In this document: piece by piece, positions 7,582-28,213 of the stretch | How the letters are laid out: every line of letters begins with the position of its first letter | Numbering within the stretch: the stretch's first letter is position 1 | Assembly: GCA_022750295.1 (NCBI GenBank) | Contig: JAKIVZ010000020.1 | Coordinates: forward strand, 1 to 34,241 | DNA length: 34,241 nt | Reading direction: 5' to 3' | Origin: Candidatus Lutacidiplasma silvani | GTDB taxonomy: Archaea > Thermoplasmatota > Thermoplasmata > Lutacidiplasmatales > UBA184 | Program-made: the position numbers and the translations under genes | Notes under the pieces: generated by a model | What the model saw: the letters and a program-made list of their open reading frames with translations, nothing else | Told to the model about the DNA's origin: nothing | The model's database searches: none

Positions 7582-8399
7582 CCGGAAACCTCGCCTACGA
7601 GCGGCTGCACGCCAATCTGCAGGCGATGGGCTGGCTCACGCTGGAACGGAACCTCGATGGAGCGCTGGAGCTCGGTACGAAGGAGGAACGCTCCTTCGCC
7701 GAGATCCTCGACGGACTCGTCGAGCAGGAGCGGAAGGCCCGTCAGACAAACCTCATCGAGCTCCGCCTACGGCTCGCCGGGTTCCCGGTGCGGAAGACCC
7801 TCGAGGAGTTCGATTACAAGGCGCAACCGTCGGTGGATCGGAAGACGATCGAGGAGCTCGCCACGATGCGGTTCGTGCACAGCGCGGAGAACGTGCTGTT
7901 CCTCGGGCCCGCTGGGGTCGGGAATACCCACCTCGCGATCGGCCTCGGGAGGGGGGCGGCGCGGGCCGGGCTCTCGGTGACCTACACCTCGGCGGGGAAG
8001 GCGCTGCGGAAGCTCAAGGAGGCGCACGAGCGCGGAGTCGGGGAGCGGGCGCTCCGGACGCTGTGCAGCCCGAAGCTGCTGATCCTCGACGAGATCGGGT
8101 ATCTGCCATGGGACAAGGAGTCGGCGCACCTGTTCTTCCGGATCGTGGAGAACCGATACGAACGGGTGTCGACGATCTTCACCTCGAACAAGGTCTACTC
8201 GGAGTGGGGCGAGGTCCTCGGGGACCCCGTGCTGGCCTCGGCGGTGCTCAATCGGATCCTCCACCACTCGACGACGGTGAACATCAAGGGCGAGAGCTAC
8301 CGGCTGCGCACGGAGCGGCGCGCCGGGACCCCCACCCCCGTTATTCCGATGGAGACACCAATGAAAGAGAAACCGCGCGGCCGAACGACGGAGGAGTGA
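7578..8399 (+). CDS. istB: IS21-family helper ATPase IstB with a mutated Walker A motif
   Basis: The 273-residue protein has the normal length and order of IstB/DnaC-like AAA+ ATPases: an N-terminal helical region, Walker A near residue 110, Walker B LLILDEIGYLPWDKES, and a sensor region STIFTSNKVYSEWGE. IstB normally binds ATP and presents target DNA to IstA. Here Walker A reads GPAGVGNTH. The invariant Lys is Asn at residue 116 (codon AAT; one change from AAG), so ATP hydrolysis should be lost or severely reduced. The ATG overlaps the stop of the repaired istA frame by ATGA. The reading frame is otherwise intact, so it is kept as a CDS although function is doubtful. Confidence 0.88.
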   Translation: MTGNLAYERLHANLQAMGWLTLERNLDGALELGTKEERSFAEILDGLVEQERKARQTNLIELRLRLAGFPVRKTLEEFDYKAQPSVDRKTIEELATMRFVHSAENVLFLGPAGVGNTHLAIGLGRGAARAGLSVTYTSAGKALRKLKEAHERGVGERALRTLCSPKLLILDEIGYLPWDKESAHLFFRIVENRYERVSTIFTSNKVYSEWGEVLGDPVLASAVLNRILHHSTTVNIKGESYRLRTERRAGTPTPVIPMETPMKEKPRGRTTEE

Positions 8400-8761: not shown

Positions 8762-10057
8762 TCAGGACGATCCGGGAGTGCCCCTCGGGCGGTAGCTTGC
8801 GGGTAAGCGAGGGATTTGTAAGAATGCCAGAGGCCGAGGGGGGGAATGGCGGGCCCTTTCTGCCGCCAGGAAGCCATACGCCGCGATGCAGAGCGTGGCG
8901 TGGTGGTGGAAGCCTCGCCACCCCCGGCCTTCGAACTGATCGAGGCCGAACTCCTGCTTCAACTCCTCGTAGTCTCGCTCGATCCGCCAGCGAGCCTTCG
9001 CCCATCGCACGAGCATCTCTGTCGGCGTGTCGGCGGGAAGCGTCGAGAGCCAGTACTTGGTGGGGGCCTCTTCGCCCTCCGGCCACTCGATGAGGAGCCA
9101 CTCCACCGGTCGGGGCGACCGTCGATTGTAGTCCCTGTGAGCAACTCGAACAGGAACACGGGCAAACCTCGAGGAGAGGAGCCCCTTCGTTCCCTCTCGC
9201 CACGCCACCTCCTCCCACTCCTGTTTCGGAAGGCTTCGGGCCAGCGCGAGAGCATCCAGCGGTCGGTGCTCAGCATTCCGCCGAAGGCGAACCGACGGTC
9301 GACCGTTCCCCCGGTACGGCGCAGGGGCGAGCGGCGTCTTCCCAGGTGGCCAGAGAGTTGCGGTGCTCTGGATACCGACGACGTAGGCGAGGCCGCGAGC
9401 GGTCAACCCCTCGCGGAACTCGTGCGAAGTTCCGTAGCCGGCGTCCGCCACCACTGGCGCCTCAGGAAGACCCTCGGCCCGGAGGGCATCGATCTGCTCG
9501 AGAGCGATCTGCCCCTTCGTCCGGAAGCGGATCTCGGCCGGCACCCCGACCGTCTTGCGGCGTGCGCGGTCCCGAGCCCACTCCTCGGGGAGGTAGGGGC
9601 AATAGGCCGACGGTACGCTCACCGCCTCATTGACGAGGCTGATCGAAACGGCCACCTGGCAGTTGTCCTGCTTGCCGAGGTTCCCGGAGTACTGTCGGGT
9701 CACTCCGACGGAGTGGGTCCCCTTCTTCGGGATTCCTGTATCGTCGACGGACCAGGCCATCACCCCGCCGTGGCGATCCATCTGGTCGAGGACCGCCCGG
9801 TCGGCGATGCGCAAGAGCGCCCGGTCGTCCCAGGGAGCAAGGGCCACGAAGTGGTGAAGCGACTGGTGACGAGCCGACACGTGGCGAGGGTCCACCCGGG
9901 CGGCGATGGGCTCGATGCTCTTGCGCTCGCCGGGAAGGCAGAGACCCACGAGGTAAGTGCGCAGGGGATCACGCCGGTCTTCGTGACCGACAGCGAGGCT
10001 CAGCTGTTCCAGGTATCCGTCGAAACGGCGCTCCTCTGGCTCGGAGAGGCCGGGCAT
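8762..10057 (-). CDS. IS701-family DDE transposase
   Basis: The 431-residue protein starts at an ATG 37 bp inside the right-hand element end. The DDE catalytic residues typical of IS701 transposases are visible: the first Asp in WSVDDTGIPKKG (around residue 105), the second in VVADAGYG, and the Glu in the C-terminal region ERDYEELKQEFGLDQFEGR. The N-terminal text YLVGLCLPGERKSIEPIAAR is also typical. No frameshift or internal stop is seen, and the length agrees with the family (about 400-450 residues), so it may still be functional. It catalyses cut-and-paste movement of its own element. Confidence 0.92.
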   Translation of the reverse strand: MPGLSEPEERRFDGYLEQLSLAVGHEDRRDPLRTYLVGLCLPGERKSIEPIAARVDPRHVSARHQSLHHFVALAPWDDRALLRIADRAVLDQMDRHGGVMAWSVDDTGIPKKGTHSVGVTRQYSGNLGKQDNCQVAVSISLVNEAVSVPSAYCPYLPEEWARDRARRKTVGVPAEIRFRTKGQIALEQIDALRAEGLPEAPVVADAGYGTSHEFREGLTARGLAYVVGIQSTATLWPPGKTPLAPAPYRGNGRPSVRLRRNAEHRPLDALALARSLPKQEWEEVAWREGTKGLLSSRFARVPVRVAHRDYNRRSPRPVEWLLIEWPEGEEAPTKYWLSTLPADTPTEMLVRWAKARWRIERDYEELKQEFGLDQFEGRGWRGFHHHATLCIAAYGFLAAERARHSPPRPLAFLQIPRLPASYRPRGTPGSS

Positions 10058-11424: not shown

Positions 11425-12117
11425 TTACGACGAGGGGTTCGAGGTGAACCGAAGGGGCTCGACGGTCGCCCGTGCCCGGGGAATGGGCCGGTTGGTCTCG
11501 GCCGCCGGAGCGCGAGGCTTCCGGGCCGCCTCGACGTCGGCCTCCGTGGGGCCGGCCTGGTCGCGCGGGAGGAGGCCGGCGGCCCGCAGCTCATTCCGGA
11601 TCTTCCGTACCGCGACCTCAAGGTCGCCGGGGCGGCGAGCGCCGGTGCACACGAGCTTCCCGCTGCCGAACAGGAGGACCACGACGCGCGGCTCCTCAAG
11701 CCGATAGACCAGCCCCGGGAATTGCTCCGGTTCATACTCGACCCGGTCGAGCCCGAGGGTGAGGGCGATCGTGTTCAGATCGATCTCGCTGCCGAGGTTC
11801 GAGGTCGCCACGATATTCTGAATCTCAATCTTCGGGCTCTTCTCGACCTTCTGGCCGGTCTTTCGGATTTGGACCGAGACGGCCCGAATCGAGTCGTCGA
11901 CCTGCTTCCAGCTCTTGCCGCCGGTGCACACGACCTTACCCGATTGGAAGAGCAGGATCGCCGTCTTGGGGGACTTCATCCGGTAGATGAGCCCGGGGAA
12001 CTGCGTCGGCTCGTATTCTGCGCCGTCAAGGGCGAGCGCAATCGACACAAGGTCGAGCTTCGTTCCGAGCGACGTCGAGGCAACCACGTTCTCGATTCGG
12101 ATCCGCGTCATGGCCAT
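11425..12117 (-). CDS. tbp: TATA-binding protein (TBP) with a C-terminal extension
   Basis: The protein shows the two direct TBP repeats, residues about 4-92 and 95-182. Matching phrases are EYEPTQFPGLIYRMKSPK and EYEPEQFPGLVYRLEEPR, and GKVVCTGG and GKLVCTGA. TBP binds box A and, with TFB, recruits archaeal RNA polymerase. The 182-residue core equals the usual archaeal length. A further 48 residues rich in Pro, Ala and Arg follow, unlike the short acidic tails common in archaeal TBPs. The start is the first of two in-frame ATGs (12117; the other is 12111), because a TATA element centred near 12142 predicts a leaderless transcript from there. The gene is divergent from the dehydrogenase gene and monocistronic. 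It is the firmest evidence in the window for an archaeal host. Confidence 0.96.
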   Translation of the reverse strand: MAMTRIRIENVVASTSLGTKLDLVSIALALDGAEYEPTQFPGLIYRMKSPKTAILLFQSGKVVCTGGKSWKQVDDSIRAVSVQIRKTGQKVEKSPKIEIQNIVATSNLGSEIDLNTIALTLGLDRVEYEPEQFPGLVYRLEEPRVVVLLFGSGKLVCTGARRPGDLEVAVRKIRNELRAAGLLPRDQAGPTEADVEAARKPRAPAAETNRPIPRARATVEPLRFTSNPSS

Positions 12118-12137
12118 ATTTATAGTATATAAGACGG

Positions 12138-12146
12138 TATTTAAGG
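12138..12146 (-). promoter_or_regulatory. TATA element of the TBP gene, in a divergent promoter region
   Basis: On the minus strand it reads CCTTAAATA. The centre is 25 nt from the first ATG of TBP. A second A/T-rich box, CTTATATACT (minus strand, 12125-12134), lies between it and the start. On the plus strand the same A/T-rich block (ATTTATAGTATATAAG, 12118-12133) could serve the divergent dehydrogenase gene at 12208. One 30-bp region may therefore bind TBP in both orientations, including for TBP's own gene. Confidence 0.6.
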
Positions 12147-12207
12147 CCTCGGGGGGGTCTGTTTGGAGCGAATCCGCCTCCCCCGGAGACGGCCCGGTGG
12201 GGTCCGC

Positions 12208-13422: not shown

Positions 13423-13461
13423 GCTTCCAAGCCTACCACGCAAGCACGTGTTAGCGAAACG

Positions 13462-13470
13462 ACTTACCTA
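13462..13470 (+). promoter_or_regulatory. Weak TATA-like element before the pentose phosphate operon
   Basis: ACTTACCTA is centred about 34 nt upstream of the transketolase ATG. It is a poor match to box A but is the only A/T-rich patch at a suitable distance. It would give a leader of only a few bases. Confidence 0.3.
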
Positions 13471-13499
13471 CCTTCTTGGTTGGCGGTCGACCCGAACCG

Positions 13500-15515
13500 A
13501 TGACCGACCTCGATCAGACGTGCGTCAACACCCTTCGATTCCTCTCCGTCGACATGGTCGAGCAGGCCAAGTCCGGCCACCCCGGCCTCCCGCTCGGAGC
13601 CGCCCCTATGGCGTTCGTGCTCTGGGACCGATTCCTTCGTCATGCGCCCGCCGATCCCACCTGGACGAACCGGGACCGGTTCGTCCTTTCGGCGGGGCAC
13701 GGCTCGGCACTCCTCTATTCGTTGCTCCACACGACGGGGTACGAGCTGCCAGTGGCCGAGCTCCAGCGATTCCGACAGTGGGGGAGCCGCACGCCGGGGC
13801 ACCCGGAACACGGTCTCACGCCGGGGGTCGAGGCCACCACGGGCCCCCTTGGACAAGGCTTCGCGATGGGGGTCGGGATGGCGATCGCCGAGCGGCACCT
13901 CCGTTCGACGCTCAACCGACCGGGGTTCGCCGTCGTCGACCACTTCACCTATGGACTCGTTTCCGACGGCGACCTGATGGAGGGGATCTCGTCGGAGGCC
14001 GCCTCGCTCGCCGGCACCCTCGGGCTCGGGCGACTCATCTATCTGTACGACGACAACCACATTTCGCTCGAGGGACCCACGGAGTGGGCGTTCACCGAGG
14101 ACGTCGGCCGCCGGTTCGAGGCGTACGGTTGGCAGGTCCTCCGCGTCGCCGATGGAAACGACCTCGAAGCGATCGACGCGGCGATCCGGGAGGCGCGGGC
14201 CGACGCGGCCCGACCGTCGCTCATCTGCGTCCGGACGCACATCGGATACGGGAGCCCCGTGCAGGACACGCGCGAGGCCCACGGAGAGGCGCTCGGGCCG
14301 GAGAAGACCCGGGCCACGAAGGAGAAGCTCGGCTGGCCGCTCGAGCCTCCCTTCCTGGTTCCCGACGAGGCCCGAGTCCATCTCGGTCGCGCCGTCGAAC
14401 GCGGCAACCGGTGGGTCGCCGAGTGGACGGCGCTTCGGGACCAGTTCCGGGCCAGCGACCCGAACGGGGCTCGCATCGCCGAACGGCAGCTCGCGGGCGA
14501 GCTTCCGGCGGGGTGGGATTCGGTCGCCCTCACGTTCCGGCCCTCCGATGGGCCGATCGCCACCCGCGACGCATCGCAAAAGTTCCTCGCGACGGTCGGC
14601 CCCAAGGTCCCGGCGCTCGTCGGCGGGGCTGCCGACCTCTCGCCGTCAACGAAGACCGAGATGCCGAAGATCCCGGAATTCTCAGCCGCCGAGGGTGCTG
14701 GCCGCAACTTCCATTTCGGAGTTCGGGAGCACGCGATGGTCGGGATCCTCAACGGGATGGCGTTGCACGGAGGGATGATTCCCTACGGGGGCACATTTCT
14801 CACCTTCTCCGATTACGCCCGAGGCTCGATCCGTCTCGCGGCGCTCCAGCGGACCCACATCGTCCTCGTGTTCACGCACGATAGCATCGCCATGGGGGAG
14901 GACGGCCCGACCCACCAGCCGGTCGAGCACGTGGCGAGCCTCCGGGCGATCCCGGGGCTGACTCTCCTGCGACCGGCCGACGCCAACGAGACGGTGGCGG
15001 CGTGGTTCCTCGCGCTCACGAGGCCGGGGCCGACCGCCCTCATCTTGACCCGGCAGAAGATTCCGGTCCTCGACGCCGGCGCCCACCCGATCGCCGAGGG
15101 GGTCCGTCACGGCGGGTACGTTCTCGCGAGGGAGACGTCCGGGGCGCCGCGTGTCGTCCTGATCGCGACCGGCTCGGAGGTCTCCCTCGCCCTCGAAGCG
15201 CATGCCCAGCTCGCGGCCCACGGCGTCCCCGCGCGGGTCGTCTCCCTCCCGTCATGGGAGGTCTTCGAGGAGCAGAGCGAGGAGTATCGATCCTCGGTCC
15301 TCCCGACCGGCGTGCCGAGGGTCTCGATTGAGGCGGCGACCACGTTCGGCTGGGCGCGATATGTCGGCCCGGACGGGGCGTCCGTCGGGGTGGACCGGTT
15401 CGGGGCCTCGGCCCCTGGCCCGGTCGTCCTCAAGGAACTTGGATTCACCGTCGAGCACGTACTCGAAGCAGTGGCGCAGGTCCAGGCACGAACGACCGGG
15501 GGGCCGCGGGCATGA
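13500..15515 (+). CDS. tkt: Transketolase, full-length single-chain type
   Basis: Transketolase moves two-carbon units between ketose and aldose phosphates with thiamine diphosphate. The 671-residue protein has the complete three-domain layout: [12 protein letters not shown] and the ThDP/metal motif [12 protein letters not shown] (D156-) with [10 protein letters not shown], the pyrimidine-domain text [20 protein letters not shown] and [20 protein letters not shown], and a C-terminal domain. Many archaea encode transketolase as two half-length subunits; this gene is of the bacterial full-length form. The ATG at 13500 is chosen because the conserved N-terminus ([20 protein letters not shown]) starts soon after. 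It is the first gene of the operon, and its stop overlaps the next ATG by four bases (ATGA). Confidence 0.95.
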
Positions 15516-18271
15516 CGTCGCTCCGGGCCCTTCTCGAGGCGGGCCAATCCCCGTGGCTCGACTACATCCGGCGTAGCCTGCTCACGCACGGCGACTTGAA
15601 GCGGATGGTGGAGAAGGACGGCATCACCGGTGTCACGATCAACCCCACGATCTTCGAGAAGGCGATCGCGGGAAGCCACGACTACGACGAGGCCCTCAAG
15701 GGCCTCCTGGTGCGGGAACCGCACCTCTCGCCGGCGGAGCTGTACGAGCAGCTGGCGGTCGAGGACGTCACGCTCGCCGCCGACGTTCTTCGACCGGTCT
15801 ACGACCGGACCGAGGGGAAGGACGGGTTCGTCAGCCTCGAGGTGGCGCCCGGGCTCGCCCACGACACGGCAGGGACCGTCGCGGAGGCCCGTCGGCTCTG
15901 GAAGGCGGTCGGACGACCGAACCTTTTGATCAAGGTCCCCGGAACTTCGGAGGGGGTCCCCGCCGTCGAGCAGCTGCTCGCCGAGGGGATCAACGTGAAC
16001 ATCACGCTCCTGTTCTCCGTCGAGCATTACGAGGCGGTCGCCCAGGCGCACCTTCGGGCGCTCGCCAAGTGCCCCAACCCCGCCCGACTCGCCTCGGTCG
16101 CGTCCGTCTTCGTCAGCCGGATCGACACCGCTGTGGATCGCCTGCTCGATGCTTCGAGCGCCCCGGGGGCCCGCGCGCTGAAGGGAAAGGTCGCGATTGC
16201 GAACAGCCGTGTTGCCTACGCCCGGTTCCAGCAGCTCGAGCAGGGCGCCGCGTTCGCGTCGTGGGCCGCCAAAGGGGCCCGTCCCCAACGCCTGCTCTGG
16301 GCCAGCACGAGCACGAAGGACCCCTCGTACCGCGATACGATGTACGTCGAGGAACTGGTCGGCCCCGAAACCGTCGACACCATCCCTCCCGCGACGGTCA
16401 CGGCGTTCGAGGACCACGGGGTCGTGCGGGCGAACGCCCTGACGGAGGACGTGGCCGGAGCTCGGGCCGTCCTGGAATCGGCCCGGGGACTCGGCATCGA
16501 CCTCGCGAAGGTCACCCACGATTTGCAAGTCGAGGGCGTCGCCCTCTTCTCGGCCTCCTACGCGACCCTGCTGGCCGCCCTCGAATCGAAGAAGGCTGTC
16601 GTGATCTCCGGGGCGCTCGACCCGCAGGCCTGGACCCTCGCCCCATCGGACGCGGCGCGAGTGACCGCGAGGATGGATGCGTGGCAGGCGGCGCGAGTTC
16701 CGGCCCGAGTCTGGCGGTTGGACCCGACGCTCTGGCCCGCGGCTCCCGCCAAGGACGTCGCCGACCGGATGGGCTGGCTCCAGCTGCCGGAGCGAATGCA
16801 CGAGCAGATCGGAGGCCTCGCGGAGTTCGCCGAACGGGCCCGGTCGGACGGGACGCGCCACGTCGTCGTCCTTGGGATGGGGGGCTCGAGCCTCGCGCCG
16901 GACGTCTTCCGACGGATCTTCGGGAGCCGGTCGGGCTATCCGGAACTGCACGTCCTCGACAGCACGCACCCGCAGGCGGTCAGCGACCTGCGCCGACGGC
17001 TCGACCCCGCCCACACGATCTTCGTGGTCTCGAGCAAGTCGGGGACCACCACCGAGCCCCTCGCATTCCACCGTTACTTTGCCGACCAGCTCACGGCGGC
17101 GGGCGTCGACCCCGCGCCGCACTTCGTCGCGATCACCGACCCGGGGACGCCGCTCGAAACCCTCGCGCACGAGCAGAACTTTCGGGCGGTGTTCCAGGCG
17201 CTCCCGACCGTCGGGGGCCGATATTCCGCCCTGACGCTGTTCGGGCTCGTCCCCGCCGCGATGATCGGCGTCGACCTTCGGGGCGTCGGGGACGAGGCGT
17301 GGACGATGGCGGAAGCGTGTGCGCCGTCCCTTCCGGCGGGGGAGAGCCCGGGACTCCGATTGGGGGCCCTCCTCGGGGAAGCGACCCTCCAGGGCCGCGA
17401 CAAGCTCACGTTCTACGCCTCGAGCGGGTTCGCTCCGTTCTCGGATTGGGTCGAGCAGCTCGTCGCGGAGAGCACCGGAAAGATCGGCAAGGGGATCGTC
17501 CCTGTGGTCGGCGAGCCGCTGGCCCCGCCCGGGTCGTACGGTTCCGACCGGCTGTTCGTCGAGATCCAGGAGTCGACGAACGCCGATGCCGCGCTCGACG
17601 CCCACACCCGTCGTCTCGAAGAAGCCGGCCACCCGGTCGTCCGGCTCCGCGTCGACGACGCCCGTGACCTCGGGCAGGAGTTCTTCCGCTGGGAGTTCGC
17701 GGTCGCCGCCTCCGGAATGATCCTCGGGATCAATCCGTACGACCAGCCGGACGTGGAATTCGCGAAGGAGCTCGCCCGGCAAGAGATGGCCCGGCCGCCC
17801 GCGACCGCCGGCTCGGACGGCCCTCCGACGGTCCCCGGCGCGGACGGTGCCGCCGTCACGGCCGCCGTCCGGGAGTGGTTGGGGCTCTGCCGTCCAGGGG
17901 ACTACGTCGCGATCCAGGCCTACCTCGCCCCGTCGACGGGGACGTCGACGTTGCTGGACGAGTTGCGACGCAAACTACTCCTCCGACTTCGCGTCGCCAC
18001 GACCCTCGGCTACGGCCCGCGGTTCCTCCACTCGACCGGTCAGCTGCACAAGGGCGGCCCGAACACGGGTCTCTTCCTCCAGATCGTCGACGCTCCCGCG
18101 ACCGACGTCCCGGTCCCCGGCGCGGGGTTCACCTTCGGTCAGCTGATCCGGGCCCAGGCGGTCGGCGACTACAAGGCGCTCCGGCAGAAGGACCGGCGCG
18201 TCCTCCGGGTCGACCTCGGGACCGACGTCCCAGGCGGGCTCCGACGCCTGGCCGGGGCCGTCGATGGCTGA
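15512..18271 (+). CDS. tal-pgi: Bifunctional transaldolase / glucose-6-phosphate isomerase
   Basis: One 919-residue chain joins two enzymes. Residues of about 1-365 are a transaldolase with [14 protein letters not shown], the Schiff-base Lys141 in [13 protein letters not shown], and [20 protein letters not shown]. Residues of about 385-919 are a phosphoglucose isomerase made of SIS domains, with [47 protein letters not shown] and [20 protein letters not shown]. Fusions of this order are known from several bacterial phyla. The transaldolase half interconverts sedoheptulose-7-phosphate plus glyceraldehyde-3-phosphate with erythrose-4-phosphate plus fructose-6-phosphate; the isomerase half returns fructose-6-phosphate to glucose-6-phosphate. 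The fusion thus closes the cycle back to the glucose-6-phosphate dehydrogenase encoded downstream. Both active sites look intact. It overlaps its neighbours by 4 and 8 nt. Confidence 0.95.
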
Positions 18272-18878
18272 GATCTCCCTCCTGCTCTGGGACGTGGGCG
18301 GCGTGTTGCTCTCGAACGGGTGGGACCACTCGGCGCGGACCGCCGCGGTCGAGCGGTTCGGTCTCGACCCGGTCGAGTTCGAGCGGCGCCACCAACTCCT
18401 CGACGCCGACTTCGAGGCCGGCCGGATCGACTGGCACCAGTACCTGGCGGCCACCGTGTTCGACGTTCCGCGGGACTTCACGCCCGACGAATTCCGAACG
18501 TTCGTGGAGGGCCGGTCGACCCCGAACGCGGCCAACCTCGCCCTCGCGCGGTCGTTGCGAGCGCGCGGGGCGTGGACGATGGCCGCGCTGAACAACGAGT
18601 CGCGGGAGCTCAACGAGTTCCGCATCGCGAAGTTCGGCCTTGCCGATGTGTTCGGCTCGTTCTTCAGCTCCTGCTACACCGGCCATCGCAAGCCCGAACC
18701 GGCGGCGTTCCGGACCGCGCTCGGGATCCTGCATCGCACGCCGACCGAGGCCGTCTTCGTGGACGACCGACCCGAGAACGTCGCCGCCGCGCGACAGCTC
18801 GGCCTCCACGCGATCCTCGCGCGCGATCCCACTCAACTTCGCAACGACCTCGCCGACGCCGGGGTCGCTGTCGAGTAG
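18264..18878 (+). CDS. HAD-superfamily hydrolase (IA-type phosphatase) in the pentose phosphate operon
   Basis: The 204-residue protein has the HAD motifs in order: motif I WDVGGVLL, motif II ALNNES, motif III Lys in GHRKPEP and motif IV VFVDDRPENVAAA. A helical cap lies between motifs I and II. Motif I is D-x-G instead of D-x-D, as in the YihX-like branch, whose known member dephosphorylates glucose-1-phosphate, so activity is still expected. The start overlaps the tal-pgi gene by 8 nt. The gene sits between tal-pgi and gnd, so co-expression is near certain. Removal of a sugar-phosphate side product, or release of glucose from glucose-1-phosphate, would suit this place, but the substrate cannot be read from the sequence. 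Confidence 0.88.
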   Translation: MAEISLLLWDVGGVLLSNGWDHSARTAAVERFGLDPVEFERRHQLLDADFEAGRIDWHQYLAATVFDVPRDFTPDEFRTFVEGRSTPNAANLALARSLRARGAWTMAALNNESRELNEFRIAKFGLADVFGSFFSSCYTGHRKPEPAAFRTALGILHRTPTEAVFVDDRPENVAAARQLGLHAILARDPTQLRNDLADAGVAVE

Positions 18879-18884
18879 GGAGGT
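18878..18884 (+). promoter_or_regulatory. Strong Shine-Dalgarno site before gnd
   Basis: GGGAGGT lies 5 nt upstream of the ATG at 18890 and fixes that start over longer upstream in-frame extensions. It shows that internal operon genes use Shine-Dalgarno initiation although the first genes look leaderless. Confidence 0.7.
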
Positions 18885-18889
18885 CAACG

Positions 18890-19798
18890 ATGGAACTTGG
18901 AATGGCGGGTCTCGGGAAGATGGGTGCGAACATGACGGAGCGGCTCGTCCGGGGCGGTCACCGGGTCGTCGGGTTCGCCCGGACGCCGGCGACGGTCGAC
19001 GCGGTCGTCCAGAAGGGCGCCGTCGGGGCCCACTCGCTCGCCGAGATGGTCCAGAAGCTCACCGCCCCGCGGGTCGTCTGGCTGATGCTGCCGTCCGGCG
19101 ACACGGTCGACCAGACGCTCGCGCAGCTGCGTCCGCTCCTCGCCCCGGGGGACTTGATCGTCGACGGGGGGAATTCGTACTATCGCGACACCCTCCGACG
19201 GTCGGCGCTCGTCACGAGCTGGGGGTTCCACTACGTCGACGTCGGGACGAGCGGCGGGATCTGGGGGCTCCAGGAAGGGTATTCGATGATGGTCGGCGGC
19301 GCCGACGCGGACGTCGAGCGGATCCGGCCGATCCTCGAGACCCTCGCCCCTGCCGCGGACCGGGGCTGGGGCCACATGGGGCCGGTCGGCTCGGGCCACT
19401 TCGTGAAGATGGTCCACAACGGGATCGAGTACGGCATGATGCAGGCGTACGCCGAGGGGTTCGCGATCCTGCAGGCGAAGAGCGAGTTCGCGCTCGACCT
19501 CCACCAGGTCGCCCTCGTCTGGCGGTACGGCAGCGTCGTGCGCTCCTGGCTCCTCGAGCTCACCGAGTCGGCGCTTGCCGACAACCCGACGCTCGCCGGG
19601 ATTGCGCCGTGGGTCGTCGACTCCGGCGAGGGCCGGTGGACTGTGACCGAGGCGATGGACCTGAACATCCCCGCGCCGATCATCACGCTCTCGCTCCAGC
19701 AGCGGCTCCGCTCCCGGGAGCAGGACCCGTTCACCGAGCGGCTCCTCGCGATGATGCGCAACAAGTTCGGCGGCCACGACATCAAGAAGGAGCCGTAG
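18890..19798 (+). CDS. gnd: 6-phosphogluconate dehydrogenase (decarboxylating), short type
   Basis: The enzyme oxidatively decarboxylates 6-phosphogluconate to ribulose-5-phosphate. The 302-residue length is that of the short GndA/YqeC-like group, not the 470-residue dimeric enzyme. Visible motifs are the Rossmann loop GLGKMGANM, VDGGNSYYRD, the substrate loop GTSGGIWGLQEGYSMMVGG, and the catalytic region GHFVKMVHNGIEYGMMQAYAEG with its Lys and Asn. After the second beta strand the sequence is FARTP. The Arg here resembles NADP-type enzymes more than the Asp of NAD-type ones, so NADP use is possible but unproven. The strong Shine-Dalgarno fixes the start; a longer reading upstream would overlap the HAD gene out of frame. 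The next gene begins 2 nt after its stop. Confidence 0.95.
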   Translation: MELGMAGLGKMGANMTERLVRGGHRVVGFARTPATVDAVVQKGAVGAHSLAEMVQKLTAPRVVWLMLPSGDTVDQTLAQLRPLLAPGDLIVDGGNSYYRDTLRRSALVTSWGFHYVDVGTSGGIWGLQEGYSMMVGGADADVERIRPILETLAPAADRGWGHMGPVGSGHFVKMVHNGIEYGMMQAYAEGFAILQAKSEFALDLHQVALVWRYGSVVRSWLLELTESALADNPTLAGIAPWVVDSGEGRWTVTEAMDLNIPAPIITLSLQQRLRSREQDPFTERLLAMMRNKFGGHDIKKEP

Positions 19799-19800
19799 GC

Positions 19801-21258
19801 ATGGCCTCCGCCGAGGCGAAGGCCCACCTGTTCGTGGTCTTCGGCGCCACCGGTGACCTGTTCCAGCGGAAGCTCCTTCCGTCGCTCTACCGGCTCGCGA
19901 CGCAGAAGAAGCTCCCCGTGGGCAGCCGGATCCTCGGGGTCGCCCGCCATCCGCTCGACGATGCGACGTTCCGAGCGAACGCGGTGAAGTCGCTCCTCGC
20001 GGAATCGGCGGGCACGGAGGGCGACCTCCGGGCGTTCTGCGACTCGACGCTCTTCTACCACGCCCTCACCGACGAGACCGCGACGGGGTTCGGGGCGCTC
20101 CGGGGCCGGCTCGAGACGCTCGAAAAGGAGCAGGGGCTCGCCGGCGACCGGCTGTTCTACCTGGCGCTCCCCCTCGACGGCTTCGCCCCGACGATCCAGG
20201 GGCTCGGCGAGGCGGGGCTCCACGCTAGTCCCGGGTGGACCCGCGTCGTCGTCGAGAAGCCGTTCGGCCGGGACCTCGCCTCGGCCCAGCAGTTGAACGG
20301 GCTCCTCCGGAAGTACTTCGAGGAGTCGCAGATCTTCCGGATCGACCACTACCTCGGGAAGGAGACGGTGCAAAACCTGCTCGTCTTCCGGTTCGCGAAC
20401 ATGTTCGTCGAATCGCTGTGGAACCGGGACCGGATCGCGCAGGTGGAGATCACCGTCGCCGAACGGCTCGGCGTCGAGGGTCGGGTCCACTACTACGACG
20501 AGTCCGGTGCGCTCCGGGACATGGTCCAGAACCATGTGACCCAGATCCTGACCCTCGTCGCGATGGAGCCTCCCGCGACGCGCGACGCCGACTCGATCCG
20601 CAACGAGAAGGTCAAGGTCCTCCAGTCGATCGCCGCGATCCGTCCGGACGACGTCGTCCGGGGCCAGTACACCCGCGGGGAGCGGGACGGGCAGCCGGTC
20701 CGGGGGTACCGCGAGGAACCGGACGTTGCGAACGACTCGACGACCGAGACGTTCGTCGCGATCCGCCTGAAGGTCGACAACTGGCGGTGGCACGGGATCC
20801 CGTTCTTCCTCCGGACCGGGAAGGCGCTCCCGGCGAAGTCGAGCCGGGTGATCCTGACGTTCAAGGCACCCGCGGTGTCGTTCTTCCAGGAGGAAGGGGA
20901 GTACGATGCGAATCCGGACCGGATGACGATCCTCATCCAGCCCGACGAGGGGTTCGAGCTCGCGTTCGAGGTCAAAGTCCCCGGGCGGGAGATCCGGGTG
21001 CAGACCGAGCGGATGCGGTTCCACTACGCCGACGTCTTCGGCGACCTCCCCGACGGCTACGAGACGCTCCTCGTCGACGTCATGCTCGGCGACCCGACCC
21101 TCTTCGTCCGCGCCGACGAGGTCGAGGGGTCGTGGAAGCTCTACGGGTCGATCCTCGCGAACCCGCCGCCGGTGGCGTTCTACGCGGCGAACACGTGGGG
21201 TCCGGTCGAGGCGAAGAAGCTCGCGGAAGAGTGGGGCCACCGGTGGGACCGGTCGTGA
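19801..21258 (+). CDS. zwf: Glucose-6-phosphate dehydrogenase, bacterial Zwf type
   Basis: It catalyses the first committed step, glucose-6-phosphate to 6-phosphogluconolactone. The 485 residues match the classic bacterial/eukaryotic family in full length. The cofactor loop is FGATGDLFQRKLLPSLYRL (from residue 14), the substrate signature is RIDHYLGKETVQN (R180-) with catalytic His in DMVQNHVTQ, and FFLRTGKALP contributes further substrate-binding residues. Nothing is truncated. It is unlike the unrelated SDR-type enzyme used by haloarchaea. The ATG follows the gnd stop after 2 nt, and the stop overlaps the GTG of the lactonase gene. Presence beside TBP in an archaeal segment suggests acquisition from bacteria; codon use looks like that of the neighbours, so any transfer is not recent. 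Confidence 0.96.
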   Translation: MASAEAKAHLFVVFGATGDLFQRKLLPSLYRLATQKKLPVGSRILGVARHPLDDATFRANAVKSLLAESAGTEGDLRAFCDSTLFYHALTDETATGFGALRGRLETLEKEQGLAGDRLFYLALPLDGFAPTIQGLGEAGLHASPGWTRVVVEKPFGRDLASAQQLNGLLRKYFEESQIFRIDHYLGKETVQNLLVFRFANMFVESLWNRDRIAQVEITVAERLGVEGRVHYYDESGALRDMVQNHVTQILTLVAMEPPATRDADSIRNEKVKVLQSIAAIRPDDVVRGQYTRGERDGQPVRGYREEPDVANDSTTETFVAIRLKVDNWRWHGIPFFLRTGKALPAKSSRVILTFKAPAVSFFQEEGEYDANPDRMTILIQPDEGFELAFEVKVPGREIRVQTERMRFHYADVFGDLPDGYETLLVDVMLGDPTLFVRADEVEGSWKLYGSILANPPPVAFYAANTWGPVEAKKLAEEWGHRWDRS

Positions 21259-22022
21259 GCCGGGCGGTCCGGGTCTTCCCCGACCTTCCCGCGGCGAGCG
21301 CGGGGCTCGCCTCCCACCTCGTCGAGGCGGCCTCCGCGGCGGTCCGGGACCACGGCTCGTTCGCGGTCGTCCTCTCCGGTGGGTCGACCCCGCAGGGGCT
21401 CTATCGACTCCTCGCCACCGACCATCGGGGGGCAGTGCCGTGGGCGCGCACCGACGTCTTCTTCGGGGACGAACGGTGCGTGGGCCCCCGCGACCCCCGA
21501 AGCAACTACGGCTCGGCCCGCGACGCCCTGCTCTCGAAGGTTCCGCTCCCGAAGAACCGGGTCCGCCGACTCCGCGGCGAACTTCACCCGCCCTCGGAAG
21601 CGGCGCGACGCTACGAACGCGAGATCGGTCCGCTCGGCGCCCCGGACGGTTCGCCGTTCCGGTTCGACCTGGTCCTCCTCGGGATCGGACCGGACGGGCA
21701 TACCGCATCCCTATTTCCCGGTGACCCGGCGCTCACGGAGGTCCGCCGGAGCGTCGTAAGCGTACCTCGTCCGGGCCGGGAGCCGAAGGTGCCGCGACTC
21801 ACGATGACCCTCCCGGCGCTCGCCGCGTCGCGGGAGGTCGTCTTCCTCGTGGGCGGGGCCGACAAGGCGCCGGCGCTCGCGAAGATCTTCGGCTCCGGAC
21901 CGCGGGGGACCCGCTCGGTCCCGGCGAGCCTCGTGCGAAGCGCGGGCACGACGACGTGGTACCTTGACGGCCCGGCCGCGGCCGGCGTCCCGTCGCCGGA
22001 CCGGACGACGTCGAACGGGTAG
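21255..22022 (+). CDS. pgl: 6-phosphogluconolactonase (DevB/NagB-like fold)
   Basis: It hydrolyses 6-phosphogluconolactone to 6-phosphogluconate, linking the zwf and gnd products. The 255-residue protein has the family motifs VLSGGSTPQGLY, FFGDERCVGPRDPRSNYGSA and LLGIGPDGHTASLFPG, the last carrying the catalytic His region. The GTG at 21255 is chosen because it overlaps the zwf stop by GTGA and leaves the normal N-terminus. A longer upstream reading would lie inside zwf. It is the last gene of the operon and converges on the glucokinase-like gene, leaving 23 nt between the two stops. Confidence 0.93.
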   Translation: MSRAVRVFPDLPAASAGLASHLVEAASAAVRDHGSFAVVLSGGSTPQGLYRLLATDHRGAVPWARTDVFFGDERCVGPRDPRSNYGSARDALLSKVPLPKNRVRRLRGELHPPSEAARRYEREIGPLGAPDGSPFRFDLVLLGIGPDGHTASLFPGDPALTEVRRSVVSVPRPGREPKVPRLTMTLPALAASREVVFLVGGADKAPALAKIFGSGPRGTRSVPASLVRSAGTTTWYLDGPAAAGVPSPDRTTSNG

Positions 22023-22045: not shown

Positions 22046-22735
22046 TTACGTTCGCCGGTCCTTCCAGAGCCGGAGGCCGCCCGTGATCGCGTACGTGTTG
22101 TCGCCGCGGACCGCGCCCGCGGGCAGGACCTTCAACTTCCGGACGTTCCCGCCGCCGAGGACGACGTAGTCGGGCTCGAGGGCGGCCGAGAGGGTCGCGA
22201 CCATCTCGAAGATCTCCTTCTGCCACTTCCGCTTGCCGAGCCGGATCCGCCCCCGTTCCCCGACGAGGTCCTCGTAGGTCTTCCCCTTCTTCCAGGGGAG
22301 GTGGCCGAGCTCCATCGGCTCGAGCTCCCCGTCGACGACCATCGCCGAGCCGAGCCCCGTGCCGAGCCCGAGGAAGAGCATCCGGCCGCCCCGGAAGCTG
22401 CCGAGCGCCTGCATCGCCGCGTCGTTCACGATCCGGGTCGGCGCGCCGAGCGCCTTCTCGAAGTCGTACCCGACCCAGCCGGCGCCGAGGTTGTGGGGCT
22501 CCCGGAGGATCCGCCCGTGGACGACGACCCCGGGATAGCCGATCGAGACGGCGTCGTACGCCGTCTTCCCGAGCGCCTTCTTCAGTTTTCGCACCATCCG
22601 GGCCGGGTCCATCGCCGGGCCGGAAGGGATCCGCCAGCCGGCCTGCCGCCGCGAGAACGAGGCGCGGACGTGGGTCCCTCCCACGTCGAGGACGAGGATT
22701 CGGCGGGGCCGCTCGGCGGAGGTCGACTTCGGCAT
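22046..22735 (-). CDS. ppgK: ROK-family glucokinase, polyphosphate-glucokinase-like
   Basis: The 229-residue protein has the ROK phosphate loop LVLDVGGTHVRASF (residues 14-27), the catalytic Asp in RIVNDAAMQALGSF, and LFLGLGTGLGSAMVVDG. The text PMELGHLPWKKGKTYEDLVG, followed by a late VVLGGGNVRKLKVLP, is the pattern of bacterial polyphosphate glucokinases. The CxCGxxGC zinc site of ATP-dependent ROK kinases and repressors is absent, as in PPGK. It should phosphorylate glucose to glucose-6-phosphate with polyphosphate (ATP use cannot be excluded), feeding the zwf enzyme of the convergent operon. No clear promoter or ribosome site is visible. Confidence 0.88.
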   Translation of the reverse strand: MPKSTSAERPRRILVLDVGGTHVRASFSRRQAGWRIPSGPAMDPARMVRKLKKALGKTAYDAVSIGYPGVVVHGRILREPHNLGAGWVGYDFEKALGAPTRIVNDAAMQALGSFRGGRMLFLGLGTGLGSAMVVDGELEPMELGHLPWKKGKTYEDLVGERGRIRLGKRKWQKEIFEMVATLSAALEPDYVVLGGGNVRKLKVLPAGAVRGDNTYAITGGLRLWKDRRT

Positions 22736-22808: not shown

Positions 22809-23618
22809 TCAGAACCGGGCGATGCTTCCCGTCGAGAGCGCCCGCCGCTCGAACGTGTTCCAGAGCGCCATCGAAAGTCCGATGCTGACGATCCCGCAGA
22901 GCGCCACGTACCCCCAGAGGGTGAGCATCGTCCCGAGGGGGGCGCCCGCGAGCGCCGCGCGGACCGCCGAGATCCCCCAGGTGAGGGGGAGGAGGTCGCC
23001 GACGTACTGGAGCGGGAGCGGAAGGACCGAGAGCGGGAAGTTCGCTCCGGAGAGGAGGAGGCCGAGGAAGAGGAAGATGTTCCCGAGGATGATCGAGGTC
23101 CGCAGGTAGAGTGCGACCCCGCCGAGCAGGAGCCCGAACCCGACCATCGCGAACGCGGTCAGCGTGATCGAGACCGCAAGGTCGCCGACGCTCCCGCCGG
23201 CGAACGGAACGTGGAAGATCGTCACTGCGTAGACGATGGCGACGGCGACCGTGGCGAGCGAGGCCAGGACCGGGATCAGGCCCCGACCGAAGTACAGCGC
23301 GAAGCGGTTCGCCGGGGAGACGAGGAGGTGCTCCATGGTGCCGGCTTCCTTCTCGTTGTCCGTCGTCTGGCAGACCGAGAACACCGAGGAGTACGTCACC
23401 GTCGCCACCGCGTTGCCGACGACCACGAACGCGACGCCGCCCGGGGTCCCCGAGAGGCTCGCGACGAACGCGAAGAACGTCATCTGGGTCAGCGGGATGA
23501 TGAAGATCGTCCCGAGCACGAAGTCGAGCCGCATGAAGCCGAGGCTCGTCCGGGGCGCGAAGATGGCGTTCACCCAGAACGTCCGGGTGAACGAGGAGCG
23601 GAGCGCCGGTTCGGTCAT
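22809..23618 (-). CDS. ABC-2 type transporter permease (second of pair)
   Basis: The 269-residue membrane protein has about six hydrophobic helices and the ABC-2 layout. A cytosolic N-terminus is followed by a helix near residue 35, a cytosolic loop with EKEAGTMEHLLVSPANRFALYFGR (the coupling region typical of this family), and a late PLPLQYVGDLLPLTWGISAVRAAL. It lies 12 nt after the stop of the first permease gene and belongs to the same operon. With that permease and the ATPase it would form a DrrAB-like exporter. The substrate (drug, lipid, glycan or peptide) is not indicated by the sequence. Confidence 0.9.
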   Translation of the reverse strand: MTEPALRSSFTRTFWVNAIFAPRTSLGFMRLDFVLGTIFIIPLTQMTFFAFVASLSGTPGGVAFVVVGNAVATVTYSSVFSVCQTTDNEKEAGTMEHLLVSPANRFALYFGRGLIPVLASLATVAVAIVYAVTIFHVPFAGGSVGDLAVSITLTAFAMVGFGLLLGGVALYLRTSIILGNIFLFLGLLLSGANFPLSVLPLPLQYVGDLLPLTWGISAVRAALAGAPLGTMLTLWGYVALCGIVSIGLSMALWNTFERRALSTGSIARF

Positions 23619-23630
23619 CGATCCGTCGTC

Positions 23631-24431
23631 CTACCAGTCGTTGAGGTCGCCGGCCTCGAGGACGTGCCGCTCGACGCGCCGGAAGACCGACGCCGCGATC
23701 CCGAGGTAGAGGAGGGTGGTTCCGACCGCCCCGACCATATCCCACCAGAACCCCCAGCCGAACCCCTGGTACCCGGGGATCGCGAGGTACCGGAGGGCGT
23801 CCAGCGCCCAGGTCGGGGGGAGGACGAGGGAGATCGGGTTCGACCAGAACGGGAGGAGGACGACCGGGAACATGCATCCGGTCCCGATGTAGAACGCGAA
23901 CTCGCCGACGTTCTGAACGAATCCGGCGTACCGGGTGTACACGTAGGCGGCGGCGAAGACGACGCCGACGGCCGCCAGCGTGACGATCACGAAGACGAAC
24001 ATCAGCAGGAACTCGAGGGGGTTCGCGAGCGGGATCGGGTGGCCGTAGGTGATCGCGACGACGACGAACACAATCAACCCGCCGAAGAGGCCGGCGACCG
24101 TGTTCCAGATCACGCGGCCGAGCACCACGTACACGTACGGCGTCGGCGCCGTCAGCGTCGGCTCGAGCGTGCCGAGGTGCCGGTCCTGGCCGGTCGCCCA
24201 GCCGCTGCCATAGAGGGTCTGGCCCCACATGCTCATCATCCCGGCGCCGAGGATCGCGTAGAGGACGAACCAGGGACCGGCGCCGGTGAACAGCTCGTAC
24301 GAAACGAGTCCGAAGATGACGGGGGCGATCAGGCTCGGAACGAGCCACTGCGGGTCGGCGAGGAAGGTGAGGACCGAGAGGCGAAGGACCGCGACGAGCG
24401 AGACCCGACGCGAGTAGGTGGAGGCTCCCAT
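23631..24431 (-). CDS. ABC-2 type transporter permease (first of pair)
   Basis: The 266-residue protein has about six membrane helices. Coupling-loop text WATGQDRHLGTLEPTLTAPT precedes the next helix, and PISLVLPPTWALDALRYLAIPGY near the C-terminus is typical of ABC-2 permeases. It begins 3 nt after the stop of the ATPase gene. The two permeases differ clearly in sequence and probably form a heterodimer. Confidence 0.9.
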   Translation of the reverse strand: MGASTYSRRVSLVAVLRLSVLTFLADPQWLVPSLIAPVIFGLVSYELFTGAGPWFVLYAILGAGMMSMWGQTLYGSGWATGQDRHLGTLEPTLTAPTPYVYVVLGRVIWNTVAGLFGGLIVFVVVAITYGHPIPLANPLEFLLMFVFVIVTLAAVGVVFAAAYVYTRYAGFVQNVGEFAFYIGTGCMFPVVLLPFWSNPISLVLPPTWALDALRYLAIPGYQGFGWGFWWDMVGAVGTTLLYLGIAASVFRRVERHVLEAGDLNDW

Positions 24432-24434
24432 CCC

Positions 24435-25418
24435 CTAGCTCGCCTCCTCTTCGACGAGGTCGAGGTAGACGTCCTCGAGGGACGTGCGACGTTCCCGCAC
24501 CGCGAGCTCAGGGTGGTTGACGAGCTGGGCGCGGACCTGCTCCAGCGACAGCTCGTCGGTTCGCACCCGCATCGTGAGCCGCAGCCGGGGACCGAACTCT
24601 TCGCTCATGACGCGCGAGACCCCGGGGAGCCGGTTCAGGCGCTGGATCTCCCCGTCGTCGAATCCGTACGCTTCGACCTCGATCGTCCGGTCCCCGCCCA
24701 CGAGCTTCCGGAGCCCCGCGACCGTGTCCCGCGCGACGATCCGGCCGCGGCTCAGCACCGCGATCCGTTGGCAGAGCTCCTCGGCCTCGAACATGTAGTG
24801 GGTCGTGAGGAAGATCGTCACCCCATCGGCGACGAGGCTGCGAATTAACTTCCGGGTTTCCCGGGCGCTCTTCGGGTCGAGCCCGATCGTCGGCTCGTCG
24901 AGGAAGAGGATCTCGGGGCCATGGAGGATCCCGCGCGCGAGGTGGAGTTTCTGCTTCATCCCGCGGGAGAACTCCTCGACGCGACGGTCGGCGGCCTCAG
25001 TGAGGTCGACGCGGTCGAGGACCTCCTGGATCCGCCGGTCGCGATGGACCACCGGCACGCCGTAGATGTCGGCGAAGTACCGGAGGTTCTCCCGCGCGCT
25101 GATCCGGTTGTAGAGGCCCCGCTCCCCGCCGAGGACGAGGCCGATCCGGGGGCGGAGCTCGGCCGCCTGTCGAACCACGTCGAGTCCCAGGACCTCGACG
25201 CTCCCGCTCGTAGGGATGAGGAGGGTCGAAAGGATCTTCGTGAACGTGGTCTTCCCGGCCCCGTTAGGTCCGAGGAGGCCGAAGATCTCCCCGTGATCGA
25301 CGTCGAGGTCGACCCCCCGGAGCGCCTCGGTCCGGATGAGCTCGTTGAAGAAGAACCCCTTCCGACTCTCGAACACCCGGCGGACGTCGCGGGCGTGGAT
25401 CGCGGATCGTTCGGTCAT
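24435..25418 (-). CDS. ABC transporter ATP-binding protein, DrrA-like
   Basis: The 327-residue ATPase has Walker A GPNGAGKTT (residues 50-58), the signature FSRGMKQKLHLARG, Walker B ILFLDEPTIGLDP and the switch His in FLTTHYMFEAEEL. A C-terminal domain of about 90 residues follows, as in DrrA-type export ATPases. An insertion near residues 17-28 (ESRKGFFFNELIRT) precedes the A-loop region. It heads a three-gene minus-strand operon with the two permeases. The intergenic region to the divergent zinc-ribbon gene is 123 nt and has no strong TATA box on this strand. Confidence 0.95.
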   Translation of the reverse strand: MTERSAIHARDVRRVFESRKGFFFNELIRTEALRGVDLDVDHGEIFGLLGPNGAGKTTFTKILSTLLIPTSGSVEVLGLDVVRQAAELRPRIGLVLGGERGLYNRISARENLRYFADIYGVPVVHRDRRIQEVLDRVDLTEAADRRVEEFSRGMKQKLHLARGILHGPEILFLDEPTIGLDPKSARETRKLIRSLVADGVTIFLTTHYMFEAEELCQRIAVLSRGRIVARDTVAGLRKLVGGDRTIEVEAYGFDDGEIQRLNRLPGVSRVMSEEFGPRLRLTMRVRTDELSLEQVRAQLVNHPELAVRERRTSLEDVYLDLVEEEAS

Positions 25419-26145: not shown

Positions 26146-27228
26146 ATGGGGAAGGCAGCGGACAAGTCGCCGGAGCCGCCCGCTCCGGAGGCTTCTCCCG
26201 ACCTCCCCGCCGACGACCTGCCCAAGGTGTACCGGGCGATGGTCCTCGCCCGCGTGATGGACGAGCGGTGCCTCACTCTGCAGCGACAGGGGCGGATCGG
26301 GTTCTACGTCCCCCTGCAGGGGCAGGAGGCGGCCCAGGTCGGATGTGCGTGGGCCCTCGACTCCGAGGATTGGATCTTTCCGGCGTACCGCGAGCTGGGC
26401 GTCGCGCTGGTCCGCGGCGTCCCGGTCAAGTTGCTCCTCGACCAGTTCATCGGCAACTCCGGCGACGTCCTCAAGGGTCGCCAGATGCCGAATCACTACG
26501 GGTACCGTGAGTTCCGGTTCGTCACGGCCTCGAGCCCGGTCGGAACCCAGATCTCCCAGGCGGTCGGCGCCGCGATGGCCGCCCGCTGGAAGGGCGAGGA
26601 GATCGTGACGGTGACGTTCTTCGGGGACGGCACGACGAGCTCGAACGATTTCCACGCGGGGCTCAACTTCGCGGGCGTCTTCAAGGCCCCGACGATCTTC
26701 TTCTGCCAGAACAACCAGTGGGCGATCTCGCTCCCCCGCGAGCGCCAGACCCGCAGCGAGACCCTGGCGGCCAAGGCGGTCGCGTACGGGTTCCCGGGGG
26801 TCGTGGTCGACGGGACCGACGTTCACGCCGTCTATCGGGCGGTCCGAGACGCCCGCGACCGGGCCCTCGCCGGCGACGGGCCGACCCTGATCGAGGCCCA
26901 GGTCTACCGGCTCGGCCCCCACTCCACATCGGACGACCCGCGGCGGTACCGGACCGACGCGGAGCTCCAGAAGTGGAAAGACAAAGACCCGCTCGCCCGC
27001 CTGAAGCACGAGCTCCTGACCTCGGGCGCTCTCACCGAGGCCGACGACGCGGCCCTCTGGGAGACGACCCGGAAGGACGTCGTCGCCGCCTTCGCCTCCG
27101 CGGAGGAGACCTCCCCGGTCGATCCGCTCACCCTCTTCGACGACGTCTTCGCGCAGCGGACCCCCCAACTCGAGGCCCAGAGGGAGGAGTTCGCCGCCCT
27201 GCTGAAGGAAGGACTCATCAAACCATGA
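26146..27228 (+). CDS. 2-oxoacid dehydrogenase E1 component, alpha subunit (first copy)
   Basis: E1 decarboxylates a 2-oxoacid (pyruvate or a branched-chain oxoacid) on thiamine diphosphate and passes the acyl group to the E2 lipoyl arm. The 360-residue alpha subunit carries the ThDP/Mg motif GDGTTSSNDFHAGLNFA (from G160) ending in CQNNQWAIS, and the active-site loop RLGPHSTSDDPRRYR. The opening YRAMVLARVMDERCLTLQRQGR and the short GRIGFYVPLQGQEAAQVG stretch resemble branched-chain E1 alpha, and the complex of Thermoplasma acidophilum acts on branched-chain oxoacids and pyruvate. Substrate choice here is not provable from sequence. It is the first gene of the operon and its stop overlaps the E1 beta ATG (ATGA). 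Confidence 0.93.
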   Translation: MGKAADKSPEPPAPEASPDLPADDLPKVYRAMVLARVMDERCLTLQRQGRIGFYVPLQGQEAAQVGCAWALDSEDWIFPAYRELGVALVRGVPVKLLLDQFIGNSGDVLKGRQMPNHYGYREFRFVTASSPVGTQISQAVGAAMAARWKGEEIVTVTFFGDGTTSSNDFHAGLNFAGVFKAPTIFFCQNNQWAISLPRERQTRSETLAAKAVAYGFPGVVVDGTDVHAVYRAVRDARDRALAGDGPTLIEAQVYRLGPHSTSDDPRRYRTDAELQKWKDKDPLARLKHELLTSGALTEADDAALWETTRKDVVAAFASAEETSPVDPLTLFDDVFAQRTPQLEAQREEFAALLKEGLIKP

Positions 27229-28202: not shown

Positions 28203-28213
28203 GAGGGGCGTCG

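Follow-up and report, generated by a model that had tools for sequence, protein, structure and literature searches.

A bacterial-type pentose phosphate operon in a family of Lutacidiplasmatales archaea, with a predicted cofactor shift and a decaying native transketolase

The stretch of DNA analysed here (the window; 34,241 nucleotides) is a whole contig (C4; JAKIVZ010000020.1) of the genome of Candidatus Lutacidiplasma silvani (GCA_022750295.1), a 2.10 Mb assembly of 29 contigs that is 90.94% complete and 0.36% contaminated, and it contained an operon of pentose phosphate pathway genes. Six open reading frames (ORFs) followed one another on the same strand at 13476-22022, neighbours overlapping by 4-8 bases or standing 2-11 bases apart (Table 1). 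All six tightly joined genes proposed in a preliminary description of this DNA were confirmed, with their family models passed, and the operon start was moved from 13500 to the start of tkt at 13476. Five of the proteins scored above specific curated thresholds; for the HAD protein, only a general subfamily model was passed (TIGR01509). Gnd, with 302 residues, exceeded the cut-off of a model for short-chain NAD-dependent 6-phosphogluconate dehydrogenase (6PGDH) of about 300 residues (TIGR00872), while Tal-Pgi possessed both domains and exceeded that of the bifunctional transaldolase/phosphoglucose isomerase model (NF007080). The Zwf translation contained RIDHYLGKETVQ, matching RIDHYLGKE, which we take to be a motif of classical Zwf, and the protein is predicted to act as a glucose-6-phosphate dehydrogenase. 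Residues D10, K143, D167 and D168 of the HAD protein were invariant among 36 homologues (31 archaeal and 5 bacterial, one of the latter, L089, lying outside the operon), and its nearest solved chain was 3cnh, an uncharacterised hydrolase.

Table 1. Features of the window. Paired values are bit scores and the curated hidden Markov model cut-offs against which they were read.
Feature	Position	Strand	Basis
Transketolase (Tkt), full-length, bacterial-type	13476..15515	+	TIGR00232 839 bits, cut-off 682
Fused transaldolase / glucose-6-phosphate isomerase (Tal-Pgi)	15512..18271	+	NF007080 1176 bits, cut-off 712; PF00923 + PF00342
HAD-IA family phosphatase	18264..18878	+	TIGR01509 51 bits, cut-off 29; PF00702
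Short-chain 6-phosphogluconate dehydrogenase (Gnd)	18890..19798	+	TIGR00872 376/297 bits; NF007161 449/271
Gnd Ala30-Arg31-Thr32, predicted cofactor-choice site	18977..18985	+	alignment, tree comparison
Classical glucose-6-phosphate dehydrogenase (Zwf)	19801..21258	+	TIGR00871 567/401 bits; PF00479 + PF02781
6-Phosphogluconolactonase (Pgl)	21255..22022	+	TIGR01198 208/124 bits; start picked among three candidates
Archaeal TATA-binding protein (TBP) gene	~11425..12147 (start approximate)	-	PF00352 E 8.5e-59, two repeats
ROK sugar kinase, polyphosphate-glucokinase-like, convergent with operon	22046..22735	-	PF00480; NF045942 65 bits, cut-off 250
DrrABC-like ABC exporter genes	22809-25418	-	search match; kept downstream of operon in L048
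Pyruvate dehydrogenase (PDH)-type cluster	26146-32668	+	E1alpha, E3, LipB by search; E1beta, E2 by eye
IstA/IstB-like pair	6262-8399	+	by eye
Second transposase-like ORF	8762-10057	-	by eye
Two large repeat/propeller-like proteins	134-5823	-	by eye

The distribution of the operon was followed in 400 genomes of the class and 101 genomes of the family, 95 of which lay within the class sample (by handle numbers). Zwf was found in 57 of the 400 class genomes (52 above the family cut-off), of which 56 belonged to the Lutacidiplasmatales family and one was a partial match elsewhere. By hand comparison, the family genomes with Gnd (E<1e-40) were precisely these 56 and no others; G389 had only a fragment of 41 residues where a contig ends. 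The Zwf and Gnd pair was therefore common but patchy (56/95), and 19 of the 36 high-quality family members possessed Zwf. No Zwf match was obtained in four control archaeal genomes, the sole archaea searched outside the class. In the operon regions fetched from 22 carriers, gnd, zwf and pgl stood together in all 22, with tkt in 20 and the HAD gene in 16, and nine had a PGI without the TAL domain (L045, L047, L049, L050, L051, L052, L056, L057, L063). The partial match outside the family (L062; genome G207, family f25) was a 333-residue Zwf piece from the edge of a contig of 4.7 kb; its branch was very long, and it may be contamination.

Trees were built for Tkt, Gnd, Zwf and PGI from 24 archaeal rows chosen to span the family (21 for Tkt), excluding the other archaeal rows and proteins covering <75% of the query (for PGI, those not reaching residue 870). 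The Gnd tree had one archaeal clade (99/91*), sister to two Acidobacteriota (98/92*) and placed within a clade shared with Acidobacteriota and Bacteroidota (100/98*). Likewise, the archaea formed one clade in the Zwf tree (90), within a 100* clade, and in the Tkt tree (92), within a 99* clade that included two Acidobacteriota. The archaea were split within a 95* clade in the quick PGI tree, and a PGI tree with the archaea united had the higher likelihood and was not rejected (p 0.746). The acquisition of a bacterial module suggested in the preliminary description was thus supported by three trees with a single archaeal clade beside Acidobacteriota, by a PGI tree that does not contradict them, and by the near-absence of Zwf outside one family. 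The best fit to these data is a single, old acquisition from bacteria, with later losses and, probably, transfers within the family.

From a scan of named genomes, 78 distinct loci, representing the best 80 of 167 places, were kept, and the closest full-length bacterial Tal-Pgi proteins among them came from Acidobacteriota (55-58% identical) and Bacteroidota (52%). Three Acidobacteriota loci shared part of the gene order: tkt - tal-pgi - gnd - zwf in L086, tal-pgi - HAD - gnd - zwf - pgl in L087, and pgi - HAD - gnd - zwf - pgl, from the contig end, in L130. Their Gnd proteins were 65-68% and their Tal-Pgi proteins 57-59% identical to those of the window, and the Zwf proteins of L087 and L130 were 54-55% identical, but a 97-residue Zwf piece of L086 was only 32% identical. 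In the bacterial loci L087, L130 and L142, the HAD gene separated tal-pgi (or pgi) from gnd. The archaeal operons differed from the Acidobacteriota runs in having Ala instead of Asp at Gnd position 30 and in the loss of the TAL domain in some lineages. None of the eight bacterial genomes behind the near-homologue loci had a TBP gene. As for the TAL domain, 9 of the 24 archaeal rows of the PGI tree lacked it; the idea that TAL-free operons are ancestral is unlikely, as the fusion state changed at least 7 times on that tree, 3 of them within archaea (contig-edge rows L130 and L138 excluded).

The Gnd sequences were further compared at the site expected to govern cofactor choice. Position 30 was Ala in 36/36 archaeal and 0/37 bacterial sequences, the latter having 25 Asp, 11 Asn and 1 Arg, and Ala30 represented a single change on the Gnd tree. 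The seven nearest bacterial homologues all possessed Asp at this position, four of them as Asp-Arg-Asp. Arg31 was kept in 35 of the 36 archaeal sequences (L047 has Leu), and position 32 was acidic in none of the 36, compared to 9 of the 37 bacterial ones (8 Asp, 1 Glu). According to passages of published work, residues Asn32-Arg33-Thr34 of 6PGDH, as numbered in the sheep enzyme, bind the 2'-phosphate of NADP (PMC8900737), Asp in place of this Asn hinders the 2'-phosphate, the Asp-Arg-Asp enzyme prefers NAD (PMC8900737, PMC5090862, PMC10619557), and N32D alone moved the NAD/NADP kcat/KM ratio of the Thermotoga maritima enzyme from 0.0015 to 1 (PMC5090862). In the window, the Asp at the end of beta-2 that favours NAD in short-chain 6PGDH is replaced by Ala30, and its Ala-Arg-Thr matches the Asn-Arg-Thr/Ser triad of NADP-specific 6PGDH at Arg and Thr but not at Asn. 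Since the NAD-favouring Asp is lost and position 32 is not acidic, a shift toward NADP is predicted, and the simplest prediction from the sequences is that Gnd now uses NADP. In Zwf, the counterpart of E. coli Arg50 was, by eye, still an Arg.

Epimerase and pentose isomerase, considered missing in the preliminary description, were absent from the operon but not from the genome, where rpe (C16:273434-274024) and rpiA (C13:3717-4232) were located. A whole pentose phosphate pathway was consequently encoded. Among the 36 high-quality family genomes, Rpe was present in all 36 and RpiA in 35, and a transaldolase-family match, in the operon or elsewhere, in all 36 (a piece only in G142); the window's genome had a second, short transaldolase outside the operon. 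The search of the genome for the ribulose monophosphate (RuMP) route, proposed together with that for rpe and rpiA, recovered an Hps gene above its cut-off of 200 and a Phi-like protein (146.5 bits) below its cut-off of 160. Hps exceeded the cut-off in 72 of the 101 family genomes. Simple replacement of the RuMP route was accordingly not supported; the oxidative pathway is added, and the RuMP route is not clearly removed. By eye, Hps was followed in frame by an RraA-like stretch in the window's genome (L059 4234-5934, plus strand; genome C19), and in many family genomes the open frame at the Hps match reached about 440 residues or longer.

The 101 family genomes were also searched with the bacterial transketolase model, counting a split N-half as strong at 140 bits or more. 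All 17 high-quality genomes without Zwf had the split archaeal transketolase only, while a one-piece Tkt, whole or in pieces, was present in 53 of the 56 carriers; in the other three (G213, G305, G398) the operon was apparently cut by contig ends. By hand count, a strong split N-half occurred in 31 of the 39 genomes without Zwf compared to 10 of the 56 with Zwf (Fisher 3e-9, a descriptive value, as the genomes are related and relatedness was uncorrected). The other eight Zwf-less genomes comprised three with a one-piece Tkt (G245, G299, G380) and five with neither kind at strength (G254, G320, G329, G374, G383), the latter perhaps reflecting incompleteness. In the nine Zwf-less loci read, picked from genomes with a strong N-half, the native order nfo, tktN, tktC and short transaldolase was intact in 9/9, as were the VGV(M/A)E and GGTHQ motifs.

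In contrast to these relatives, where the split archaeal transketolase stood as tktN-tktC beside a short transaldolase, the native locus was partly deleted or degraded in most carriers. Among the 26 carriers read (16 informative ones and all ten with a strong N-half), the N-half was absent or eroded in 16. In the 16 informative carriers, tktN was missing in 14, while G065 retained 54 residues of it as a remnant and the G257 copy was 41% identical; tktC was missing in 5 and diverged in 11. The Glu aligned with that of the transketolase VREH motif, presumably catalytic, was kept in G257 alone among the ten diverged tktC frames covering the site. The window's own genome possessed nfo, a tktC-like frame without this Glu and the short transaldolase, with no tktN there. 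Of the ten carriers whose N-half was strong, seven had kept the Glu (missing in G395, G386 and G236) and five the GGTHQ His. The carriers thus form a gradient from intact to deleted native transketolase. The leftover tktC frames had nonsynonymous to synonymous rate ratios (dN/dS) of 0.32-0.35 compared to 0.10-0.15 for intact copies (two pairs each), and they are therefore relaxed yet not free of selection. Open tktC frames without a full N-half nearby, mostly lacking the motifs, were seen in L186 (3341-4285), L189, L191, L193-L195, L198-L200 and L203.

Concerning the neighbouring genes, the ROK kinase was present on the fetched piece in 16 of the 22 relatives' operon regions, and in L051, L052, L053, L056 and L057 it followed pgl immediately and shared its strand. 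Its position beside the operon in relatives suggests that it supplies glucose-6-phosphate; its identity as a glucokinase is only likely, because the nearest solved chains were 3lm2 ("Putative kinase") and then 1woq (polyphosphate/ATP-glucomannokinase). The downstream order of ROK kinase, three ABC genes and PDH E1 genes recurred in L048. The PDH-type cluster had the order E1alpha, E1beta, E2, second E1alpha, E3, LipB, that is, two E1alpha genes in an archaeal genome. Upstream, the TBP gene, one of three in the genome, was confirmed as archaeal and lay 1.3 kb from tkt; in L066, a TBP gene lay 7.6 kb upstream of tkt, in the opposite orientation. The IstA/IstB-like pair and the transposase-like ORF were situated between the surface-protein genes and TBP, and the repeat/propeller-like genes had lower GC (0.59-0.62) and third-position GC (0.68-0.71) than the other genes measured. 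Codon use of the operon correlated with that of the PDH genes (r 0.99), TBP and ABC genes (0.988) and insertion sequence (IS) genes (0.962). The operon thus matched its neighbours in codon use, but as IS genes also correlate, this indicates a fit to the genome and not, as such, the adaptation suggested in the preliminary description.

The account that best explains these observations, with a probability of about 0.8, is that the family ancestor captured a bacterial operon, that Gnd moved toward NADP, and that the native split transketolase was displaced. The family ancestor would have taken up the operon from a donor near Acidobacteriota. The ROK kinase would make glucose-6-phosphate, which Zwf, Pgl and Gnd would oxidise to ribulose-5-phosphate, while chromosomal RpiA and Rpe with the operon-encoded Tkt and Tal-Pgi would feed carbon back into fructose- and glucose-6-phosphate. 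Gnd, once captured, would have swapped the NAD-favouring Asp for Ala, keeping Arg31 and no acidic residue at position 32, and should make NADPH. The native split transketolase would have become redundant because a one-piece Tkt had been captured; its N-half would then have been lost or eroded in most carriers, and its C-half lost or stripped of catalytic residues.

Several observations weigh against this account, and are given here with the alternatives they concern. The named archaeal records are metagenome-assembled. Zwf was almost missing from the remaining class, and no second assembly showed the exact upstream junction (TBP - dehydrogenase - tkt), two points that speak for bacterial contamination or for a contig wrongly joined near 13423-13500. 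Contamination or chimerism is nevertheless very unlikely, because Zwf and Gnd share the same 56 of 95 family members; the copies branch together, the downstream order recurs in L048, contamination of the genome is low and codon use agrees with neighbouring genes. Nor do the data fit the scenario, raised in the preliminary description, of archaeal relatives without the operon and bacteria with an identical copy: relatives carry it, and bacterial homologues were only ~50-68% identical. The isolates AcS1-3, AcS1-45, AcS1-67, AcS11-62 and SubAcS13-64, which are among the closest named relatives, are included in the Ca. Lutacidiplasmatales genome table of PMC9287336; the host genome is archaeal, and its family would belong to Lutacidiplasmatales. 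No bacterial locus inspected had all six genes in order, HAD and tkt included. Concerning the direction of transfer, an approximately unbiased (AU) test did not reject a grouping of the seven nearest bacterial Gnd rows (p 0.067), leaving the order within the clade open; the archaea are not firmly placed inside the Acidobacteriota/Bacteroidota set. Some bacterial carriers also lay on short metagenomic contigs (L086, 9.0 kb; L142, 6.6 kb). A transfer from archaea to Acidobacteriota and Bacteroidota is nonetheless improbable: the window's Zwf had matches in 113 of 247 Acidobacteriota genomes (closest 51-55% identical) and 116 of 151 Chloroflexota genomes (closest 51%) but was nearly confined to one family in the archaeal class, and the Gnd tree puts the archaea within a series of bacterial branches. 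Operon trees also conflicted with genus labels, L045 and L047, labelled as the same genus, being deepest in the Zwf and Gnd trees, so that transfers within the family are likely.

As regards the native enzyme, displacement by the captured Tkt would produce the decay pattern found. However, 10 of the 56 carriers keep both native halves, four of which (G263, G398, G338, G266) retain Glu and His and seem intact; as the genomes are related, the association counts are not independent, and 5/39 Zwf-less genomes show neither transketolase kind at strength. These points suit a decay with some other cause, one that preceded the operon or was unrelated to it, which is unlikely given that all nine Zwf-less loci read were intact and that carriers range from intact to deleted. 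The retained Hps gene of the window's genome (220.6 bits) also weighs against the account. As regards the cofactor, Ala30 differs from the Asn that characterised NADP enzymes have there, and dual cofactor use is possible; where E. coli Zwf has Lys18, the window's Zwf has, by eye, Thr, a state known from several dual-cofactor Zwf enzymes (PMC4807051), and it may therefore use both cofactors. That Gnd still uses NAD or both, the operon feeding respiration with NADH rather than supplying NADPH, is a less probable reading: TIGR00872 is named NAD-dependent, Gnd retains the GxGxxG fingerprint that marks the NAD cluster (a passage of PMC8900737), and Arg after Asp occurs in NAD enzymes too. It is countered by Ala replacing the 2'-phosphate-hindering Asp in every archaeal sequence and by the lack of acidic residues at position 32.

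Oxidative branches had already been reported from other archaea. The available part of a 2015 survey recorded EC 1.1.1.49 in 0 of 83 archaeal genera compared to 66% of 636 bacterial genera (PMC4518329), and by 2021 glucose-6-phosphate dehydrogenase (G6PDH) and 6PGDH had been reported in Halobacteria, Pacearchaeota, Thaumarchaeota and Asgard archaea (PMC8506132, citing Maturana 2021), the oxidative-branch genes of the last three being covered by a single sentence of that source. A table in PMC8140973 lists G6PDH for haloarchaea. Haloferax volcanii likewise has an archaeal oxidative branch, but its G6PDH is an unrelated short-chain dehydrogenase/reductase (a passage of PMC8506132), in agreement with what the preliminary description stated for haloarchaea, whereas the window encodes a classical Zwf whose Pfam matches were two G6PD domains only. 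The F420-dependent glucose-6-phosphate dehydrogenases of topsoil Gagatemarchaeum are a different enzyme (PMC10640624, in part). A word search of the main text of PMC9287336 returned no mention of pentose, glucose-6-phosphate or transketolase. Within the accessible portions of the open-licence PMC literature, no report was found of the pathway in Thermoplasmatota, Thermoplasmata or Lutacidiplasmatales, or of displacement of a split transketolase; the operon of these archaea, the replacement by Ala30 and the native transketolase loss appear unreported there.

This Lutacidiplasmatales family would show one domain swapping in a core metabolic pathway from another. Tentatively, it may represent a natural series of cross-domain pathway replacement, from capture through a Gnd change from NAD to NADP to repeated, stepwise dismantling of the native enzyme, with the leftover tktC, an open frame that mostly lacks its catalytic Glu yet stays under residual selection, possibly in a new non-enzymatic role. 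The occurrence of carriers together with close non-carrying relatives allows direct tests of how a captured pathway fits its new host, including which cofactor it serves, which native genes it makes dispensable, and in which order these are lost.

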